Below are positions 5,509 to 12,542 of a DNA stretch of 43,858 nt, piece after piece. The notes beneath the pieces are model-generated. The model did not search any database. It saw only the letters and a list, made by a program, of their open reading frames with translations, and was not told the origin of the DNA. This DNA comes from an uncultured Shimia sp. (GTDB lineage Bacteria; Pseudomonadota; Alphaproteobacteria; Rhodobacterales; Rhodobacteraceae), in assembly GCF_913054185.1 (NCBI RefSeq), contig NZ_CAJXIV010000024.1, positions 1 to 43,858 on the forward strand, in the 5' to 3' direction. Made by a program: the position numbers and the translations under genes. Numbering within the stretch: the stretch's first letter is position 1; each line of letters starts with the position of its first letter.

Positions 5509-6372
5509 GTGAAAGACACCGCACAGGAAACCATAAACAAAATTTATGACAGTTTGACCCGCGCCGAGCGTCAGCTCGCTGGGGTGATTTTGGAGAACTA
5601 CCCCATGTCCGGCATGGGCTCGATCACCCGACTCGCGGAGAAAGCATCGGTTTCGACGCCAACCGTGGCCCGCATGGTGCAAAAGCTGGGGTACTCAGGC
5701 TTCCCCGAGTTTCAGGAGGCACTGCGCCAAGAGGTTGAGGCGCGCTTCTCCAATCCAATTGCCAAGCATGAAAGCTGGGCACAAAGCGCTCCAGAAGCGC
5801 ATATTCTCAACCGCTTTACCGATGCGGTGATGAGCAATATCCGCCAAACCCTGGCCAACATCGACCCCGCTCAATTTGACGCCCTCACCGGCCTTTTGGC
5901 GGATGAAAACCGCGCGCTCTATATCACCGGCGGCCGGATCACCCACGCGCTCAGCGAATATTTGCACCTGCACATGCAGGTCATCCGGGCCCGCGTACGT
6001 CACATCCGCTCCACGTCAAATGCCTGGCCGCACGACTTGCTGGATATCTGCGAAGGCGATGTGGTGCTGATCTATGACATCCGCCGCTATGAAAACTCCA
6101 CGCTGCGGCTTGCAGAAATCGCCAAACGACGTGGTGCAAAAATCGCCTTGATCACCGATCAATGGCAAAGTCCCATCAGCCAGTATGCCGACGTCTCTCT
6201 TAAATGTCGGATTGAAGCCCCGTCAGCATGGGATTCCACTGTGGCCATGATGCTGTTGTCGGAAACTCTGATTGCCGCCGTGCAAGAAGCGCGCTGGGAC
6301 CAAACCGAAAGCCGCATGCATGCGCTTGAAGACATGTTTGACCAAACCAAAATCTTCCGAAAGTTTGTCTGA
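5509..6372 (+). CDS. MurR/RpiR family transcriptional regulator
   Basis: This 287-residue regulator has the usual two parts. An N-terminal helix-turn-helix of about 75 residues (SITRLAEKASVSTPTVARMV is the recognition region) is followed by a SIS sugar-isomerase-like domain from about residue 115 to 270 (RALYITGGRITHALSEYLH, then DVVLIYDIRRYENSTLRLA). SIS domains usually sense a phosphorylated sugar, but in roseobacters such regulators also sit by amino-acid and TRAP operons. It is divergent from the amidohydrolase/TRAP/ligase operon and is the obvious candidate regulator for it. The start is a GTG at 5509. The ribosome site is weak. Confidence 0.9.
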   Translation: MKDTAQETINKIYDSLTRAERQLAGVILENYPMSGMGSITRLAEKASVSTPTVARMVQKLGYSGFPEFQEALRQEVEARFSNPIAKHESWAQSAPEAHILNRFTDAVMSNIRQTLANIDPAQFDALTGLLADENRALYITGGRITHALSEYLHLHMQVIRARVRHIRSTSNAWPHDLLDICEGDVVLIYDIRRYENSTLRLAEIAKRRGAKIALITDQWQSPISQYADVSLKCRIEAPSAWDSTVAMMLLSETLIAAVQEARWDQTESRMHALEDMFDQTKIFRKFV

Positions 6373-6490
6373 CAATTGCCTAGGCGCGGATGGGCTCAAG
6401 CACTCTCCTTAAGGGTGATCTCGACGTACCCACGCCGAATTCTCGCCGCATTCCCAACGCCATGGCTGGTTTTGGCCTTAATAACTTAGG

Positions 6491-6505
6491 TTAACAATAT
6501 CTTAA
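6491..6505. promoter_or_regulatory. Perfect CtrA-type box (TTAA-N7-TTAA)
   Basis: TTAA at 6491-6494 and TTAA at 6502-6505 are separated by exactly seven bases (CAATATC), the full consensus for the alphaproteobacterial master regulator CtrA. It lies 151 bases before the ATG of the REC/degenerate-GGDEF gene, in a 284-base spacer with no other plausible gene. In Roseobacter-group bacteria CtrA controls motility, signalling and gene-transfer-agent genes, so control by CtrA is a reasonable inference. Confidence 0.6.
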
Positions 6506-6656
6506 TTTTTCCCCTTGGCAGACCATTGTCGCCCCTTTCTCACCGCAATCTCCCAACATACTGGTCCACGTAAGACCGGCGCAAAGTGTCGGCATAGTGT
6601 GTGACAGAGCTAGGTTGGTTGAGGACATAGAAACAGCGCCAGAAAGGGCTGGGACA

Positions 6657-7736
6657 ATGAAAATTTTGGCCGTTGATGACGATGAACACATCTGCGAACT
6701 GCTGTCCGAAGCGGTTGCAACCAAAACTGAGCACACCATTGTCACTGTGACCTCTGGCCCCGAGGCAATCCGCACAATCGCGAAAGCCAAAATCCCATTT
6801 GATTGCTTCCTTCTGGACGTCCAAATGCCAATTATGGACGGCATCACACTGGCCAAAAAAATTCGCAAAACCAAGCCTTACACTCGAACGCCCATTCTGA
6901 TGCTGACAGCCATGTCACAAAAGAAATACGTCGATGCGGCATTTGAGGCGGGGGCAACCGACTACGTCACCAAACCGTTTGATTTCCTGGAGCTGTTCAC
7001 CCGAATTTCAATCGCAGAACGTCAGATTGTGGAGCACAAGGAACTGATCAGCACCGTGTCCGAGATGGCGTCCCTTAAAAGAGACCTGATCTTCAACACG
7101 GCCCACAGCCTGGGTGAACCCATCGAACTCACTGGCGTGACGCAGCTTATTGGATGTATGGCTTTTGACGCACATGTTTTGGCCATGCCGCGCCGGCAGC
7201 GCATGCGCACGCGCGCATTCGGTGTTAAAATCAGCACCATCGAAAGTGCGTACAAGACACTCTCTGCGGTTGCCTTCCGGCACATGCTGACCGACATCGG
7301 CAGTGAATTGCTGTCGGTGATGGCGCACACCGACACGCAAGTCACCTACAAGGGTGCTGGTGTATTTGTCGGAACCCTGCCCCGCAGCGCAGGTTACTCC
7401 GGCGCCCGTTTGGAAGCTGAATTGAACAGCCGCCTCGACTATGTTCCCTCAACGCACATTGACGGGCTGCAAAATGCAGTTTGCTTTGGGGAAGCTGTGG
7501 AGCTGCGCACTCTCACTCGTGGTGGTGCCCTGCATGCGCTGCAAAAAGCCGTCACAAATGTGCACACTCGCGCACAAGCCCCACGCAGCAGTGGTACCGA
7601 TCTGCGCAAAACCATGCGCCAGCATCCCGCAAGCGGGTTTCAGACAGAACAGGAGCGCCGCGCGTATGAATCGCTTCTGCACGACGCCCTGCATGAAGAC
7701 AGCCAAACACCCCAATCGGCCGCGACATTTGGCTAA
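6657..7736 (+). CDS. Response regulator: receiver plus degenerate GGDEF-like domain
   Basis: Residues 1-120 form a receiver domain with the acidic pair D7/D8, phospho-acceptor D54 (LLDVQMP) and conserved K106 (VTKPFD). A linker of about 60 residues, including a probable signalling helix, leads to residues 165-320, whose pattern follows a diguanylate cyclase fold. The signature loop expected to read GGDEF is KGAGVF at 232-237, so cyclase activity is very unlikely. The domain may bind cyclic di-GMP, GTP or a partner protein instead. The protein is 359 residues, with a purine-rich site before the ATG at 6657. It lies between a CtrA box and the luxI-type gene, with which it converges (13 bases apart). 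It could be the output of the nearby relay. Confidence 0.82.
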   Translation: MKILAVDDDEHICELLSEAVATKTEHTIVTVTSGPEAIRTIAKAKIPFDCFLLDVQMPIMDGITLAKKIRKTKPYTRTPILMLTAMSQKKYVDAAFEAGATDYVTKPFDFLELFTRISIAERQIVEHKELISTVSEMASLKRDLIFNTAHSLGEPIELTGVTQLIGCMAFDAHVLAMPRRQRMRTRAFGVKISTIESAYKTLSAVAFRHMLTDIGSELLSVMAHTDTQVTYKGAGVFVGTLPRSAGYSGARLEAELNSRLDYVPSTHIDGLQNAVCFGEAVELRTLTRGGALHALQKAVTNVHTRAQAPRSSGTDLRKTMRQHPASGFQTEQERRAYESLLHDALHEDSQTPQSAATFG

Positions 7737-7749
7737 CGTCAGGCGCACG

Positions 7750-8337
7750 CTAGTGGTGCGTGCGTGACAAATCCATACGCGCGACCTGGACGGGCGCGCC
7801 ATCAACCAGCATCACCGGACCTGCAGCCTCTGCAAACAGACCCAACCGGCGTATCCACCGAGGCCAAATTGCCGGCACCAGACCAAGCACTTGTTTGGTC
7901 TCCATCTCTCGGGCAGTGTCGATCAACTTTTTCATCAGCCGCGTTTGCACTTCGGTGCGGTCCTCTGCGGGCACATCCCGCGCCACAAAAACACGGCTCG
8001 CATCCAGAATATTTGGATCGATTGGCGCTTCGTCATACAGCAGAGTGGTTGGAATCGACTCGAGCATGCCCTTTTGCGCATCTCGAATCATATAAGAATA
8101 CATGCCGCACCGCGCGGTGGTTGGCGTCAGCCGCACCCCCGCCAGGACACGCTCTCCTTGATGAACCGCAATCCAGCTGGACGCGGGTGTGTCGTATTGG
8201 TCGTACTCCATGCCTGCCACTTCGGGCAGGTCCCAGTTGTTCTGCACTATGAAGGACTGTTTACGCGCCCTCAGCAGATTGACCATCAATTCGCCATGCT
8301 TGTGCATGTTCTCGAATGATAGAGTAGTCGTCAGCAT
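7750..8337 (-). CDS. LuxI-type acyl-homoserine-lactone synthase
   Basis: This 195-residue enzyme makes an N-acyl-homoserine lactone from S-adenosylmethionine and an acylated carrier, providing a diffusible density signal. The conserved residues of the LuxI family are visible in order: R25, F29, W35, D46, D49 and R69. The Glu-x2-Arg pair appears as D112-A-S-R115, so Asp replaces the usual Glu. No LuxR-type receptor gene lies in the window. Neighbours are phosphorelay proteins instead. The ATG at 8337 is preceded by GGGGA close to the start. A short hairpin (CGCACGC and GCGTGCG, 7744-7764) overlaps the stop codon between this gene and the convergent regulator. Confidence 0.85.
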   Translation of the reverse strand: MLTTTLSFENMHKHGELMVNLLRARKQSFIVQNNWDLPEVAGMEYDQYDTPASSWIAVHQGERVLAGVRLTPTTARCGMYSYMIRDAQKGMLESIPTTLLYDEAPIDPNILDASRVFVARDVPAEDRTEVQTRLMKKLIDTAREMETKQVLGLVPAIWPRWIRRLGLFAEAAGPVMLVDGAPVQVARMDLSRTHH

Positions 8338-8887
8338 TTCCCCAATTTCTCCGGATACTCATTGCCCCAGGTACCAAATGAACTCACTCACACAGTGACA
8401 CGGCCATTCTGGCCCGCGCCGGATACACACCAAATTACTCTTCACCACACAAAACACGCACAGGAAGCCAAGGCCACCTGCCCACAATGCAGGCTCCCAC
8501 GAACCATTTTACATCAACCGGAAAACCATACCTGGACCCCAAGCGCCTTCACCGACACAACCTAGCCGCGCACCAGCTCTTAGATCCAAATTCACGCTTA
8601 AATCGATTGAGACACAATTTTTAGCTAAACTCTACAAAAAATGTTTACCTTTCAGATTTTGTCGATTGTTTCCGCTCCTAGAACACAGTTTTTACACTTT
8701 TAAATGAATGTTATGCGAAAAATTTACTCTCTATCAACCAATTAAGGCGAAACCTTTATTAACGGCGGGAGTCGTTAACGAATAGCTTCGCGAAAATTCC
8801 CAGCCCCAAACACCAAAATGCCACCTTGTGACGCCAGGCTTGCACAGAACTGTCACGCGTCACGCTTGAAGGACACCAGGGATTGAG
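8338..8887. other. 550-base divergent spacer between luxI-type and OB-fold genes
   Basis: No convincing gene is seen. The first 240 bases are C-rich with only short, oddly composed frames. About 8580-8800 is AT-rich, as expected of promoters. It holds a near-CtrA match TTAA-N7-TTAT at 8700-8714, a perfect inverted repeat TTAACG-N8-CGTTAA at 8759-8778, the palindrome TTCGCGAA at 8787-8794, and a tandem GTCACGC pair at 8852-8865. The length and the clustered sites suggest a regulated two-way promoter region. Confidence 0.55.
8759..8778. promoter_or_regulatory. Inverted repeat TTAACG-N8-CGTTAA
   Basis: Six-base arms TTAACG (8759-8764) and CGTTAA (8773-8778) are perfectly inverted around eight bases, the size of a dimeric regulator site. 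It lies about 110 bases upstream of the OB-fold-like gene and about 420 bases upstream of the luxI-type gene on the other strand. The TTAA cores recall CtrA half-sites, but the spacing is not the CtrA spacing. Confidence 0.4.
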
Positions 8888-9268
8888 ATGCAGCCATACT
8901 TCCTAAATTTTCACGTTAAAGGTGAAATCGCCCACACCTTGCTTCTGTCAGAACCAGAGCCTCGGCTTTTGATTGATATCTCGGCCAGGGCTGCAACCGA
9001 TGCTGAGGCGCCGGGATTTCGCTATCCCCAGCGGGTCTGCTTTACTGTGACAAATAAGGACCTGATTGCCCGGTTCCGCGACACTGTGTCACCAGGCGAC
9101 GTGATTGAGGCGACGGGTACTTTTGACCAAACCGGGTATGTGCCACACACGCGTGGTCACATCGACACCACGTTTGAGCTGCTGGATTTTGTGCGCAGCG
9201 AAGCCAGCGGCAAACTTGAACATGATGGGCGTGTGTTCCAACCCGACACAAATGCCCGTCCCAGCTAG
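8888..9268 (+). CDS. Conserved-type small protein, OB-fold-like
   Basis: I do not recognise this 126-residue protein as a named family. The middle (residues about 50-100, with VCFTVTNKDLIARF then SPGDVIEATGTFDQ) has the beta-strand, helix, strand spacing of an OB-fold, similar in outline to single-strand-DNA-binding and PriB-like proteins, and ends in a polar tail. No signal peptide or membrane segment is visible. The ATG at 8888 follows an AGGGATTGAG site. It stands at the head of a plus-strand series (OB-fold protein, histidine kinase, Hpt) downstream of a long regulatory spacer, so a role in the same signalling locus is possible. Function is unknown. Confidence 0.65.
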   Translation: MQPYFLNFHVKGEIAHTLLLSEPEPRLLIDISARAATDAEAPGFRYPQRVCFTVTNKDLIARFRDTVSPGDVIEATGTFDQTGYVPHTRGHIDTTFELLDFVRSEASGKLEHDGRVFQPDTNARPS

Positions 9269-9385
9269 GAAAATCGTTTTCCTGCCGAAACCCGACCATT
9301 TTTGAGCCACATTCTGCTGCTTTCTTAAACACAACAGCACCAGCTGCCATTGGTGCGCAAACCGAATACGTCCGGATGTCGCAGA

Positions 9386-10852
9386 ATGCACATTGAACAA
9401 ACGAACCGCTCCCGGTCAGACACGCCGATACTGCGCCGTATCGCCCGTCGTTTTCGGGTGGTGTTCCCCCGCCGCCAACCGCCGGTGGAACACTCCCGAC
9501 GCCTTAAGCAACAAATGCATGATTTTGCCAGCGGCGGGGCCGCGTTGTTTTGGCAACGCCAAGGCATTTACGCCGGTGCCGGTTTTCTGTGTGGCTTTTA
9601 CTTTTCCTGGCCGCTGGCCGCGCTGTGTTATCTCCTCATTCAAGTGGGCGACATCTTTGACAGCATTGTCTGTCACAGGGTTATCAACCGCACCGATCAT
9701 TCGTTGCGGCACAGCCACAGGCTGCTGAAACTGCTCTTTACTTCAAATGCAATATCAGCGGTTTCCATTGCGACGTTCACTCTTTTGTTGGCCCGATTGG
9801 AAGGCCCGGGTGAACACTTCACCTCGCTGTTTTTCCTGTTTGCCGCAGGCCTTTTTGCGGCGGTGAACAATCATCAACTCAAGCAAGTGCTTGCCTTACG
9901 TCTGATCACCTACGGGGCGTTGTTCATCTACATCCCCGCGTCAGACATACTTGCGCATGGGGCACCGTTCACGTCCAAGTTGTGGCTACACTTCGCAACC
10001 TCCCTTTTTGTGCTGTATTTTGTCCTCGAATGTTCCACCATCTTTTTGCGCATGTACCAGCGCACACTGGATCAGATGGACGAGCTGCGCTCGGAGCGCG
10101 ACAAGGCGCGTGAAAGCTATGAGATCAAGTCGCAGTTTGTCTCTGTGGTGAGCCACGAATTGCGCACCCCCCTCACGTCAATCACCGGCTCGCTGACTCT
10201 CATGCGTGAAACCAACTTGTCCAAAGATCCGGAGAAAGCCGACCGGATGCTCGACATCGCCTATAAAAACAGCAAACGCCTGAGCAAACTGATCAACGAC
10301 CTGCTCGACATTCAAAAAATGGAAGCCCGCAAGATGGTTTACCACTTTGCACCGGTTGATCTCGGCCAACTGCTCAACGACGCCGCTCAGTCAATTACGC
10401 CTTATGCGGATCAATATGAAATTGTGGTGCGCACCGATCCGCCCCCCTTCCCGCTTACCATTCGCGCCGACCATGAGCGCATGATGCAAGTGCTGGACAA
10501 CCTTTTGTCCAACGCTGTTAAGTTCTCTCATGAAGGCGGATATGTGGAACTCAGCGCCCGTCTGGTAGACGGCTGCGCAATGCTTGCGGTGCGTGACTAT
10601 GGAGTTGGCATTCCAAATGGCGAGCGCCACCAAATCTTTGGCAAGTTCACCCAGGTCGACAACTCCGACTGTCGCAATTTTGAGGGCACGGGCCTCGGTC
10701 TCTCCATTGCTCGTCAGATCATCGAAGACCACGGTGCTTCAATCGATTTTGACAGCACTTTAGGCGAAGGCACCCGTTTTTACGCCATTTTTCCCCTGTG
10801 TGACACCGAAGACAACATCAGTATCGAATTGCCACAAGCGAGCGCGCCATAA
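9386..10852 (+). CDS. Membrane histidine kinase (no receiver domain)
   Basis: This is a 488-residue sensor kinase. Residues about 50-220 are strongly hydrophobic with five or six likely membrane helices and no large periplasmic domain, so the signal may be membrane-borne or hydrophobic. A short coiled linker (LDQMDELRSERDKARESY) leads to the dimerisation domain with phospho-acceptor H257 in SHELRTPLTS. The ATPase domain has the N box (DNLLSNAVKF), G1 (VRDYGVGIP), F box (IFGKFTQVD) and G2 (GTGLGLSI). No receiver is fused. The partners are probably the adjacent Hpt (11 bases downstream) and the stand-alone receiver. ATG 9386 is preferred over a TTG at 9350. Confidence 0.92.
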   Translation: MHIEQTNRSRSDTPILRRIARRFRVVFPRRQPPVEHSRRLKQQMHDFASGGAALFWQRQGIYAGAGFLCGFYFSWPLAALCYLLIQVGDIFDSIVCHRVINRTDHSLRHSHRLLKLLFTSNAISAVSIATFTLLLARLEGPGEHFTSLFFLFAAGLFAAVNNHQLKQVLALRLITYGALFIYIPASDILAHGAPFTSKLWLHFATSLFVLYFVLECSTIFLRMYQRTLDQMDELRSERDKARESYEIKSQFVSVVSHELRTPLTSITGSLTLMRETNLSKDPEKADRMLDIAYKNSKRLSKLINDLLDIQKMEARKMVYHFAPVDLGQLLNDAAQSITPYADQYEIVVRTDPPPFPLTIRADHERMMQVLDNLLSNAVKFSHEGGYVELSARLVDGCAMLAVRDYGVGIPNGERHQIFGKFTQVDNSDCRNFEGTGLGLSIARQIIEDHGASIDFDSTLGEGTRFYAIFPLCDTEDNISIELPQASAP

Positions 10853-10863
10853 AGGAGCCAACC

Positions 10864-11202
10864 ATGTTTCCAGATGACCATCAGGACAAATTTGATCGCC
10901 TGCGCCGCCACTTCATGTCAGGCCTGCCGCAGCGAGAAGCTGAAATCGAAGAGTACACAGCAACACTCCTGGAACACGGCGCGGACCGCCCTGCTCTCGA
11001 AGGTCTGCACCTTGCGGCCCACAAACTGGCCGGTATCTGCGCAACCTACGGGTTGCACCAATTGGGTCACCTAGCGGAGAAAGCCGAAGCTCTCTTGGAA
11101 CGCGGCACAGCTCACGAACCATGTGACGCCTCGATGCAGGACATTCTTGTTGCCACTGACATGCTGACTGAAGAACTCGGCAGCGTGATTGAAACTGCCT
11201 AA
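10864..11202 (+). CDS. Hpt-domain phosphotransfer protein
   Basis: This 112-residue all-helical protein has the Hpt signature around H53 (LAAHKLAGICATYGLHQLG), where the histidine takes a phosphate from one receiver and gives it to another. Nothing else is fused to it. It starts 11 bases after the histidine kinase stop behind an AAGGAG site, so the two are co-transcribed. It ends six bases before the convergent receiver gene. A kinase without a receiver, a free receiver and a free Hpt are the parts of a split phosphorelay. Confidence 0.88.
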   Translation: MFPDDHQDKFDRLRRHFMSGLPQREAEIEEYTATLLEHGADRPALEGLHLAAHKLAGICATYGLHQLGHLAEKAEALLERGTAHEPCDASMQDILVATDMLTEELGSVIETA

Positions 11203-11208
11203 ATGCGC

Positions 11209-11592
11209 TCAGCCAGCCTGAGCGACAATGGCCCTTAGTTGATCTGGTAGAGCCACTGGATCAAATGGTTTCTGGATGGCGCCGGCGGCACAGTCCGTGA
11301 TATCAGAATGGTGCTTGGACGTAACATCCTTGGACGTCATGAAAATCGCAGGCACATCGGCCAACGCGTCTTGCCTTCGCAATTTGGCCAGCGTCTCCAA
11401 TCCGCTCAGCCCTGGCATCATCACGTCCAGTAACAACAGATCCGGTGCAAACTTTGCGGCATTTTTGATCGCGTCTGTGCCATTGGCACATTGCATCACT
11501 TCAAAGCCGCCAAATTCAGCCAAGGCCAAATAGGTGATCTCGCGAATGTCCGCGTCGTCTTCGACGTGCAGTATTTTTCGGATTTCCGTCAT
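11209..11592 (-). CDS. Stand-alone receiver (CheY-like) response regulator
   Basis: This 127-residue protein is only a receiver domain: acidic residues E11/D12/D13, phospho-acceptor D56 (LLLLDVMMPG), switch T86 (IFMTSKD) and K108 (AIQKPFD). It has no output domain, so it must act as a relay intermediate or by protein contact. Transcribed toward the kinase/Hpt pair, it converges with the Hpt gene. Longer upstream in-frame sequence exists, but the ATG at 11592 has an AGGGGAG ribosome site and begins exactly where the receiver fold starts (KILHVEDD). Confidence 0.9.
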   Translation of the reverse strand: MTEIRKILHVEDDADIREITYLALAEFGGFEVMQCANGTDAIKNAAKFAPDLLLLDVMMPGLSGLETLAKLRRQDALADVPAIFMTSKDVTSKHHSDITDCAAGAIQKPFDPVALPDQLRAIVAQAG

Positions 11593-11777
11593 TTTTTGCT
11601 CCCCTAACATCCCTATGAATTTGACCGTATAGTCAAGATGTATCAAAGGGAAGCACAAGCCCAATACTCGCCTGAAGGGTGAAAATTTGGTGACGTCGCG
11701 TGTCAGCTCTCTCCAGCCACTTGAGCCTGTGACCACAACGCCTAAGCTTGCTGAACAGATGGCCATTAGGAGACCCC

Positions 11778-12542
11778 ATGTCGGACCAACCTCTTCTGTC
11801 AGAACGCATCGACAATGCGTTGGTGCTGACACTCAACGACCCCGCCCGTCTCAACCCGATCCGCGTGGCCACCCGCGAAGCTCTTTCCAAAGCCCTGGAG
11901 CAGGCCGAAGAAGACGCGTCCATCCGCGCCGTGATCTTGACCGGCGCGGGCGGCAACTTCTCCTCCGGTGGCGACATCGCGGCCATGGACGCCCCGGCCC
12001 GTCTCAAACGTATCAATTTTGAACACGTGAAACACATGGTGAACCAGATCACCGGCGGCTCTGTTCCGGTGATCGCAGCTGTGGAAGGTTGGGCCGCGGG
12101 TGCAGGCCTCGCCGTCGCCATGATGTGTGACACCGTGATCGCAGGCAACTCCGCCCGCTTCATGGCCGCCTTCCCCAAAATTGGCCTGATGCCGGACTAC
12201 GGCTTGCTGGCCTCTTTGCCCGCTCGCGTCGGCCAATCCCGCGCCCGCCAGATCATGCTCTATGCCAAACCCGTCAGCGCAGAGTGGGCTGAAAGCATCG
12301 GCATGGTGGACGAGTTGGTTGAGGACGGCAAAGCGTTGGAAGCAGCACTTGCACTGGCCAAACATGTCGAAACGCTGGGGCCCGAGGCCCTACGCGCCAT
12401 CAAGGCGTTTGACAGTGGCCGCATGGATCGCGCGATTGATTATGAGCGGGATTTGCAGCCGCTTCTTCTTGGCAGTGACAACGCCCAAGAAGGCCGCGCC
12501 GCGTTCTTTGAAAAACGCCCGCCAATCTTCAAACCCAGCTAA
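11778..12542 (+). CDS. Enoyl-CoA hydratase/isomerase family protein
   Basis: This 254-residue crotonase-fold enzyme probably hydrates or isomerises an acyl-CoA in fatty-acid or branched-chain degradation. The oxyanion-hole segments are visible as AVILTGAGGNFSSGGDIAAMD (about residues 48-68) and AAVEGWAAGAGLAVAMMCD (about 95-113). The first catalytic Glu expected in hydratases is not obvious at the usual GLMPDYG position, where Asp occurs, so the reaction is uncertain. The ATG at 11778 follows AGGAGA. The gene is monocistronic, closed by a strong terminator, and divergent from the receiver gene. Confidence 0.88.
   Translation: MSDQPLLSERIDNALVLTLNDPARLNPIRVATREALSKALEQAEEDASIRAVILTGAGGNFSSGGDIAAMDAPARLKRINFEHVKHMVNQITGGSVPVIAAVEGWAAGAGLAVAMMCDTVIAGNSARFMAAFPKIGLMPDYGLLASLPARVGQSRARQIMLYAKPVSAEWAESIGMVDELVEDGKALEAALALAKHVETLGPEALRAIKAFDSGRMDRAIDYERDLQPLLLGSDNAQEGRAAFFEKRPPIFKPS

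Follow-up and report, generated by a model that had tools for sequence, protein, structure and literature searches.

The DNA analyzed here, hereafter the window, is a stretch of 43,858 nucleotides from an uncultured marine Shimia sp., and lies on contig 24 (NZ_CAJXIV010000024.1) of a Shimia-type genome (GCF_913054185.1, G000; 4.04 Mb in 176 contigs, 93.85% complete). The subject of this work is a group of six genes at positions 6657–11592: a response regulator in which a receiver is fused to a degenerate GGDEF fold (RECX, plus strand), a putative LuxI-type synthase of acyl-homoserine lactones (AHLs; minus strand), a 126-residue OB-fold protein (plus strand), a membrane histidine kinase (plus strand), a free Hpt protein (plus strand) and a single-domain receiver (minus strand). 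Open reading frames and Pfam searches confirm the genes, domains and positions given in an earlier note made from the sequence alone, and the Pfam cut-offs agree with its description of a kinase that has no receiver beside a free Hpt and a free receiver. Judging by gene spacing, the group may consist of four units: the RECX gene and luxI would each stand alone, the OB, kinase and Hpt genes would be read together in the direction opposite to luxI, and the free receiver gene would be the fourth.

The presumed phosphoacceptors, which the earlier note had numbered correctly, are invariant in the aligned sequences: H257 of the kinase (n = 16), D54 of RECX (n = 24), D56 of the receiver (n = 15) and H53 of Hpt (n = 13). 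The intergenic region of 550 bp (8338–8887) between luxI and the OB–kinase–Hpt genes is common to both and contains conserved blocks among nine aligned close relatives. No Rfam match up to an expectation value (E) of 1 was found for a structured RNA across positions 6300–11800, which include this region.

Conservation of the Gene Group

When 40 genomes were searched with RECX, 20 matches, among them the window itself, reached an identity of 44% or more. The other 19 (L022–L040) constitute the set of relatives, and nine weaker or second RECX matches, plus L041, were examined as well. The six genes are found in the same order and on the same strands in 18 of the 19 relatives, in 17 of them by tblastn and in L038 with the Hpt gene recognized by its profile (77 bits). 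The earlier note had proposed a search for conserved gene order as a check of its view, and on this point that view is not refuted. All six genes are present in S. marina (L058 and L173), and a LuxI of the same kind is encoded in 23 of 25 genomes of the genus. In three genomes of the genus (G001, G006 and G022), a more distant LuxI adjoins the same type of kinase. Within the genus, conservation often extends to the flanking genes, and sequence identity is high among the closest species.

A Kinase in the Place of LuxR

None of the genes with a LuxR domain (PF03472) in the window genome lies on the contig of the window. The canonical arrangement of luxR beside luxI is thus missing, as the earlier note had remarked, and luxI has a kinase as its neighbor instead. 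The surroundings of related synthases were classified by the occurrence of the kinase sensor domain within 6 kb, or of a LuxR within 3 kb, of the luxI gene. Among 127 LuxI loci, a total that pools several query routes, 77 have the kinase and 49 have LuxR; none has both, and the single locus with neither has its luxI at a contig edge. Some genomes were sampled twice, and removal of identical proteins leaves 112 distinct LuxI (62 with the kinase, 49 with LuxR, none with both and one with neither). A cleaner sample for frequencies comes from named genomes that were searched with an alignment of LuxI, which gave at least 525 relatives; the best 80 of these, kept by LuxI similarity alone, comprise 49 LuxR-type loci, 30 kinase-type loci and one at a contig end with neither partner. 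In this set, a degenerate GGDEF domain is encoded near 26 of the 30 kinase-type loci and near none of the 49 LuxR-type loci. Five LuxR-type loci were also read by eye, and rplQ-like genes are close by in L067, L080 and L115. That the kinase occupies the position which LuxR holds next to the nearest relatives of this LuxI, a point absent from the earlier note, is the most telling observation of the analysis.

Gene layout varies among the kinase-type loci. In 30 of the 62 distinct kinase-type loci, luxI is divergent and upstream and the OB gene, Hpt and the degenerate GGDEF are present; ten loci have luxI downstream on the strand of the kinase together with the degenerate GGDEF and no detected OB or Hpt gene, and 22 display other combinations. 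The kinase and LuxI, mostly with RECX, remain together despite changed order and flanks and with LuxI identities down to approximately 45–50%. The persistence of the kinase–LuxI linkage through different layouts argues for function. Starting from the sensor domain, which is present in 39 of 295 genomes of the family, 38 loci were examined (G000, G004 and two fragments of G251 were left out), and 25 of them have luxI nearby.

On a tree of the 112 LuxI proteins, the kinase or LuxR label requires three changes (two to four in bootstraps), compared with 36.5 in shuffles. The partner thus follows the LuxI lineage, and the association rests on few independent events. A Fisher test (p = 5e-17) takes no account of relatedness and is given no weight here. 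The idea of several independent receptor swaps was considered and is unsupported, as one origin is not rejected by the approximately unbiased (AU) test (p-AU 0.41). Nothing in the 25 genus genomes closely resembles the 203-residue LuxR of L067, whose synthase is among the nearest of the LuxR type; the best match reaches 32% identity over most of its length.

The LuxI-Type Synthase and Its Signal

The luxI gene (7750–8337, minus strand) encodes a putative AHL synthase that matches PF00765 with 43.1 bits against a cut-off of 24, and is the only full-length match to this family in the window genome at its 93.85% completeness. The module LuxI is likewise the only full-length PF00765 match in 15 of the 25 genus genomes, a count that leaves out short, partial matches of up to 31 bits. 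Residues R25, F29, W35, E44, D46, D49, R69 and R115, which are conserved in LuxI-type synthases, are invariant (n = 16). Three residues before R115, the window LuxI and its closest relatives have an aspartate in place of the usual glutamate. The protein probably produces an AHL.

Published data from related bacteria bear on the possible signal. Shimia sp. SK013 is reported to produce a single AHL, which by column count of the published table is C18:2-homoserine lactone (C18:2-HSL; PMC6356624), and C18:2-HSL is also among the products of LuxI1 of Dinoroseobacter shibae (PMC6009203). The genome paper of SK013 gives Shim_31370 as its AHL gene and marks S. marina as having none. An attempt to assign the C18:2-HSL of SK013 to the module LuxI, made through genome G008, which resembles SK013, and the neighboring gene Shim_31260, was not successful. 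In G008, the one PF00765 match is the module LuxI, and the nearest gene of the Shim_31260 family (PF06253, trimethylamine methyltransferase) is 34 kb away from luxI, too far for the approximately 11 genes from Shim_31260 to Shim_31370; in addition, S. marina carries the module LuxI, contrary to its marking in the SK013 paper. Both observations weaken this identity of the signal. The 34-kb gap implies that Shim_31370 is perhaps not the module LuxI, or that G008 is perhaps not SK013.

The Membrane Kinase and Its Sensor Region

The kinase (9386–10852, plus strand) has HisKA (PF00512), with the phosphoacceptor H257, and HATPase_c (PF02518) above the cut-offs. Its sensor region (9491–10093, plus strand), the candidate AHL receptor domain, contains five or six hydrophobic segments as judged by the hydropathy of the window kinase, the kinases of L022–L040 and L047, and that of Sulfitobacter pontiacus. 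No convincing match to this region was found in Pfam, NCBIfam or the sequences of the PDB, and no quorum-sensing model is among the NCBIfam matches listed for it.

In two relatives (L023:4492-6294 and L026:3149-4951), the reading frame of the kinase is without its usual stop and continues over the Hpt gene in another frame. LuxI, the same kinase type and a receiver also occur together on a contig of the viral collection IMG/VR (L132), perhaps the edge of a prophage or a sequence sorted there in error.

RECX, a Degenerate GGDEF Protein

RECX (6657–7736, plus strand; 359 residues) has an N-terminal receiver (PF00072) with the phosphoacceptor D54. Its C-terminal part has no Pfam match, and only one of 24 family members touches GGDEF at E 0.05. 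The AlphaFold model has a mean predicted local distance difference test (pLDDT) of 82 and a predicted TM-score (pTM) of 0.48. The best Foldseek matches are WspR, PleD and DgcR, aligned over both domains, with TM-scores by query of 0.33 to 0.53. Such poor superposition of the whole chain is expected if the receiver and GGDEF domains are oriented differently. A profile of the C-terminal part gave six matches with E up to 10 among the sequences of solved structures, five of which are diguanylate cyclases or GGDEF proteins (best E 0.003). The fold of a diguanylate cyclase is therefore recognized by structure comparison, with a weak signal in sequence, and the earlier assignment of a receiver fused to a degenerate GGDEF is upheld.

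The motifs of the canonical family are lost. In two overlapping alignments, the GG[DE]EF active-site motif is found in 0/24 and 0/24 sequences, and the inhibitory motif RxxD upstream of the active site in 1/24 and 0/24. An active diguanylate cyclase is rejected on the first count, and a receptor of cyclic di-GMP through the inhibitory motif on the second. RECX thus shares the architecture of WspR, PleD and DgcR but not their catalytic and inhibitory motifs, and because both are lost we infer that it is a pseudo-enzyme whose output is exerted by protein contact.

The profile of its degenerate GGDEF domain has one match in the window genome at E 0.001. A RECX gene followed by an Hpt gene recurs as a cassette outside the layout of the window, in L146, L155, L162 and L166 and also in L045. 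A short block around TTTCTC-ACGCA-TC (approximately 6515–6560), upstream of the RECX gene, is partly kept throughout the genus, even where the CtrA box described below is missing, and may be the general promoter.

The OB-Fold Protein, Hpt and the Free Receiver

The 126-residue protein encoded between luxI and the kinase gene (8888–9268, plus strand) has no Pfam match. Its AlphaFold model, of moderate confidence (pLDDT 76.5), resembles the OB-fold of single-stranded DNA-binding (SSB) proteins: the 18 Foldseek matches at E ≤ 0.001, from E 1.5e-4, are all mitochondrial single-stranded DNA-binding proteins, with identities of 12–15%. The profile of the domain has one match in the window genome at E 0.001. 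This protein might bind single-stranded DNA or another ligand.

The Hpt gene (10864–11202, plus strand; PF01627, 34.8 bits) starts 11 bp after the stop codon of the kinase gene and encodes the phosphoacceptor H53. The receiver (11209–11592, minus strand; PF00072) has a full acidic pocket, with D12, D13, D56, T86 and K108 invariant (n = 15). An Hpt profile is found near the kinase in 31 of the 62 distinct kinase-type loci and is not found in the other 31, where a divergent Hpt may escape detection. The ten loci in which RECX, kinase and LuxI occur together with no detected Hpt point to direct transfer from the kinase to RECX as a simpler core, and a four-step relay would at best be an elaboration of certain lineages. 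The earlier note had written a His-Asp-His-Asp chain from these parts. Its four acceptor residues hold; the order of transfer cannot be read from sequence, and an Hpt is detected in half of the loci.

Neither receiver of the module is CtrA, as their scores of 58.6 and 37.6 bits lie below the cut-off of 350, which only G000:C10 passes. Osp, the CckA inhibitor of Cereibacter sphaeroides, is comparable to the free receiver in its single receiver domain and in its Rhodobacterales CtrA context. By contrast, Osp is described as having neither the acidic pair nor the lysine (PMC9430884), which the window receiver keeps as D12, D13 and K108 (n = 15). Because Osp is a single-domain protein without the residues kept here, its identification with RECX or with the free receiver was rejected.

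The CtrA Box

The CtrA-type box TTAA-N7-TTAA at 6491–6505 (plus strand), which the earlier note had placed ahead of the locus, begins 166 bp upstream of the RECX start codon and is the single perfect match in the window; chance alone predicts 0.13 matches, and at least one occurred in 12 of 100 shuffles. The window genome encodes a CtrA above the curated cut-off on another contig. Before the RECX gene, a strict box is found in 5 of the 18 relatives and a near-match in two more; it is absent from this place in 11, namely the close species L024 and ten more distant ones. Three of these ten have a box 51–56 bp before the kinase gene (strict in L032, relaxed in L034 and L035), which indicates that the input of CtrA may shift its place rather than disappear. 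A box in the region from luxI to the OB gene was considered and dropped, since 4 of 19 sequences have a match there and all of these are relaxed. From the distribution of the boxes, CtrA input to the RECX gene is likely for the closest species only, and other species may have such input at another point of the module. The box as such is real in the closest species; its part in the circuit, as originally proposed, is weakened by its absence from that place in 11 of 18 relatives.

Discussion

The association of an orphan luxI with an adjoining histidine kinase in roseobacters was described by Cude and Buchan in 2013 (topologies H, I and J), who suggested a LuxN-like system (PMC3824088). The pairing as such is therefore already proposed, and the strongest new fact added here is the partner-choice counts. 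The window shares with their loci a LuxI without LuxR and an adjoining histidine kinase. Their group consists of I-delta LuxI, whereas the window LuxI belongs among synthases with many LuxR-linked relatives; through its Sulfitobacter member, we infer that the more distant kinase-type clade found in this work corresponds to I-delta. The text of the section of that article on orphan luxI genes describes no sensor domain, RECX, OB protein, Hpt, free receiver or mutual exclusion of partners. No experimental test of the link between LuxI and kinase in roseobacters was found among the papers and passages listed by searches of an open-licence library.

Our tentative reading is that the locus encodes two-component AHL quorum sensing, functionally similar to LuxM/LuxN, with a synthase of the LuxI type and a membrane kinase as its dedicated partner in the place of LuxR; we regard this reading as falling a little short of an even chance. 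Its central premise, that the kinase senses the AHL of the neighboring LuxI, is held with the same reserve, as nearly an even call. In such a module, LuxI would produce an AHL, possibly with a long chain such as C18:2-HSL, which would partition into the membrane and be bound by the multi-transmembrane (TM) sensor region, so that the balance of kinase and phosphatase activity at H257 would be altered. The phosphate would then reach D54 of RECX, without an intermediate in the simplest loci and, in the window, perhaps via D56 of the receiver and H53 of Hpt; alternatively, the free receiver might act as a phosphate sink. RECX would finally work by contact with other proteins, as neither the cyclase motif nor the inhibitory motif for cyclic di-GMP is present.

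A number of observations weigh against this reading. The one relative without the complete group (L040, genome G005) retains the genes for sensor kinase, receiver, Hpt and RECX, with neither a luxI nor an OB gene at the locus; its module is possibly a listener without a synthase of its own. This locus and the failed tie to SK013 lower our confidence. At 13 of the 38 loci with the sensor domain, luxI is missing from the stretch examined. Some stretches are short, such as the 5-kb contig L161, and the genomes of two other loci (L165 and L167) have a further copy that does adjoin luxI. In two of the thirteen (L154 and L169), the sensor kinase type lies beside a LuxR with no luxI in the stretch. 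Genes with a LuxR domain above the Pfam cut-off are present in 25 of the 25 genus genomes, and an unlinked LuxR could thus be the receptor. A single origin of the kinase-type synthases is compatible with the tree, on which only one independent pair is supported. Finally, linkage would equally be expected if the kinase merely controls luxI. As separate observations, G005 has a LuxR–LuxI pair on another contig, and the best LuxR-domain gene of the window genome (L178:6265-7131), read by eye, is a solo that adjoins phoB- and phoU-like genes.

These points bear on an explanation in which the kinase senses another cue, such as redox, lipid or envelope state, the module times AHL production, and the signal is heard by an unlinked LuxR solo. 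We consider this possible, if on the unlikely side. In its favor are the LuxR-domain genes of all 25 genus genomes, including the one next to phoB- and phoU-like genes, and the kinase relay that is kept without luxI in L040, and AHL synthesis under CtrA control is published for D. shibae (PMC4046655). On its own, however, it leaves unexplained both the alternation of kinase and LuxR, with both partners in none of the 127 loci, and the lack of a close genus counterpart of the LuxR type of the sister synthases. A more far-reaching possibility is an ancient exchange of receptors, by which one Rhodobacterales LuxI family would exist in two forms, with a cytoplasmic LuxR or with a membrane kinase that has an uncatalogued multi-TM domain. 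The kinase form would then be a whole, portable system with a pseudo-GGDEF contact output and an OB protein that possibly ties AHL to DNA handling; this extension of the quorum-sensing reading we regard as possible, but less likely than not.

The earlier note proposed a CtrA-controlled His-Asp-His-Asp phosphorelay that unites AHL and cyclic di-GMP signaling, and its notion of one conserved signaling unit stands. The invariance of the four acceptor residues, the box of the closest species, those that precede the kinase gene in three further relatives, and the recurrence of RECX followed by Hpt in L146, L155, L162 and L166 are consistent with it. The cyclic di-GMP arm is unsupported, with the cyclase motif present in none of the sequences and the inhibitory motif in almost none; together with the box missing from that place in 11 of 18 relatives and the failure to detect an Hpt in 31 of the 62 kinase-type loci, this makes the complete circuit improbable. 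Still less credit, to the point of being very improbable, is given to mere neighborhood, that is, to unrelated signaling genes passed on together within a clade of recent origin. The often retained flanks within the genus and the high identity among the closest species would suit such inheritance, but not the company of kinase and LuxI, mostly with RECX, across varied order and flanks and down to LuxI identities of about 45–50%.

Known systems resemble the module in part. In Vibrio, the AHL synthase LuxM, of a family separate from LuxI, is encoded beside the multi-TM kinase LuxN, and the pathway to LuxO includes the Hpt protein LuxU. On these general features, the likeness lies in a synthase that adjoins a multi-TM kinase and an Hpt. 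The window synthase belongs to PF00765 and is not of the LuxM type, its kinase has only HisKA and HATPase_c above the cut-off and is not a hybrid, and no sigma-54-type regulator comparable to LuxO is among the eight window proteins scanned. With the CckA–ChpT–CtrA pathway, the module shares an alphaproteobacterial kinase, an Hpt and receivers, as well as a possible CtrA input at a promoter; it differs in that its kinase has no receiver, CtrA is encoded on another contig and the module has an Hpt of its own.

Orphan luxI genes are described as frequent in a number of roseobacter genera (PMC3824088). If LuxR is indeed replaced by a dedicated kinase, many of these genes would be explained, and AHLs with very long chains and low solubility would have a route by way of the membrane. 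Species with no LuxI found other than that of the module permit a direct test of the kinase as receptor. The grouping recurs in many relatives and suggests a mode of AHL perception that has received little study.

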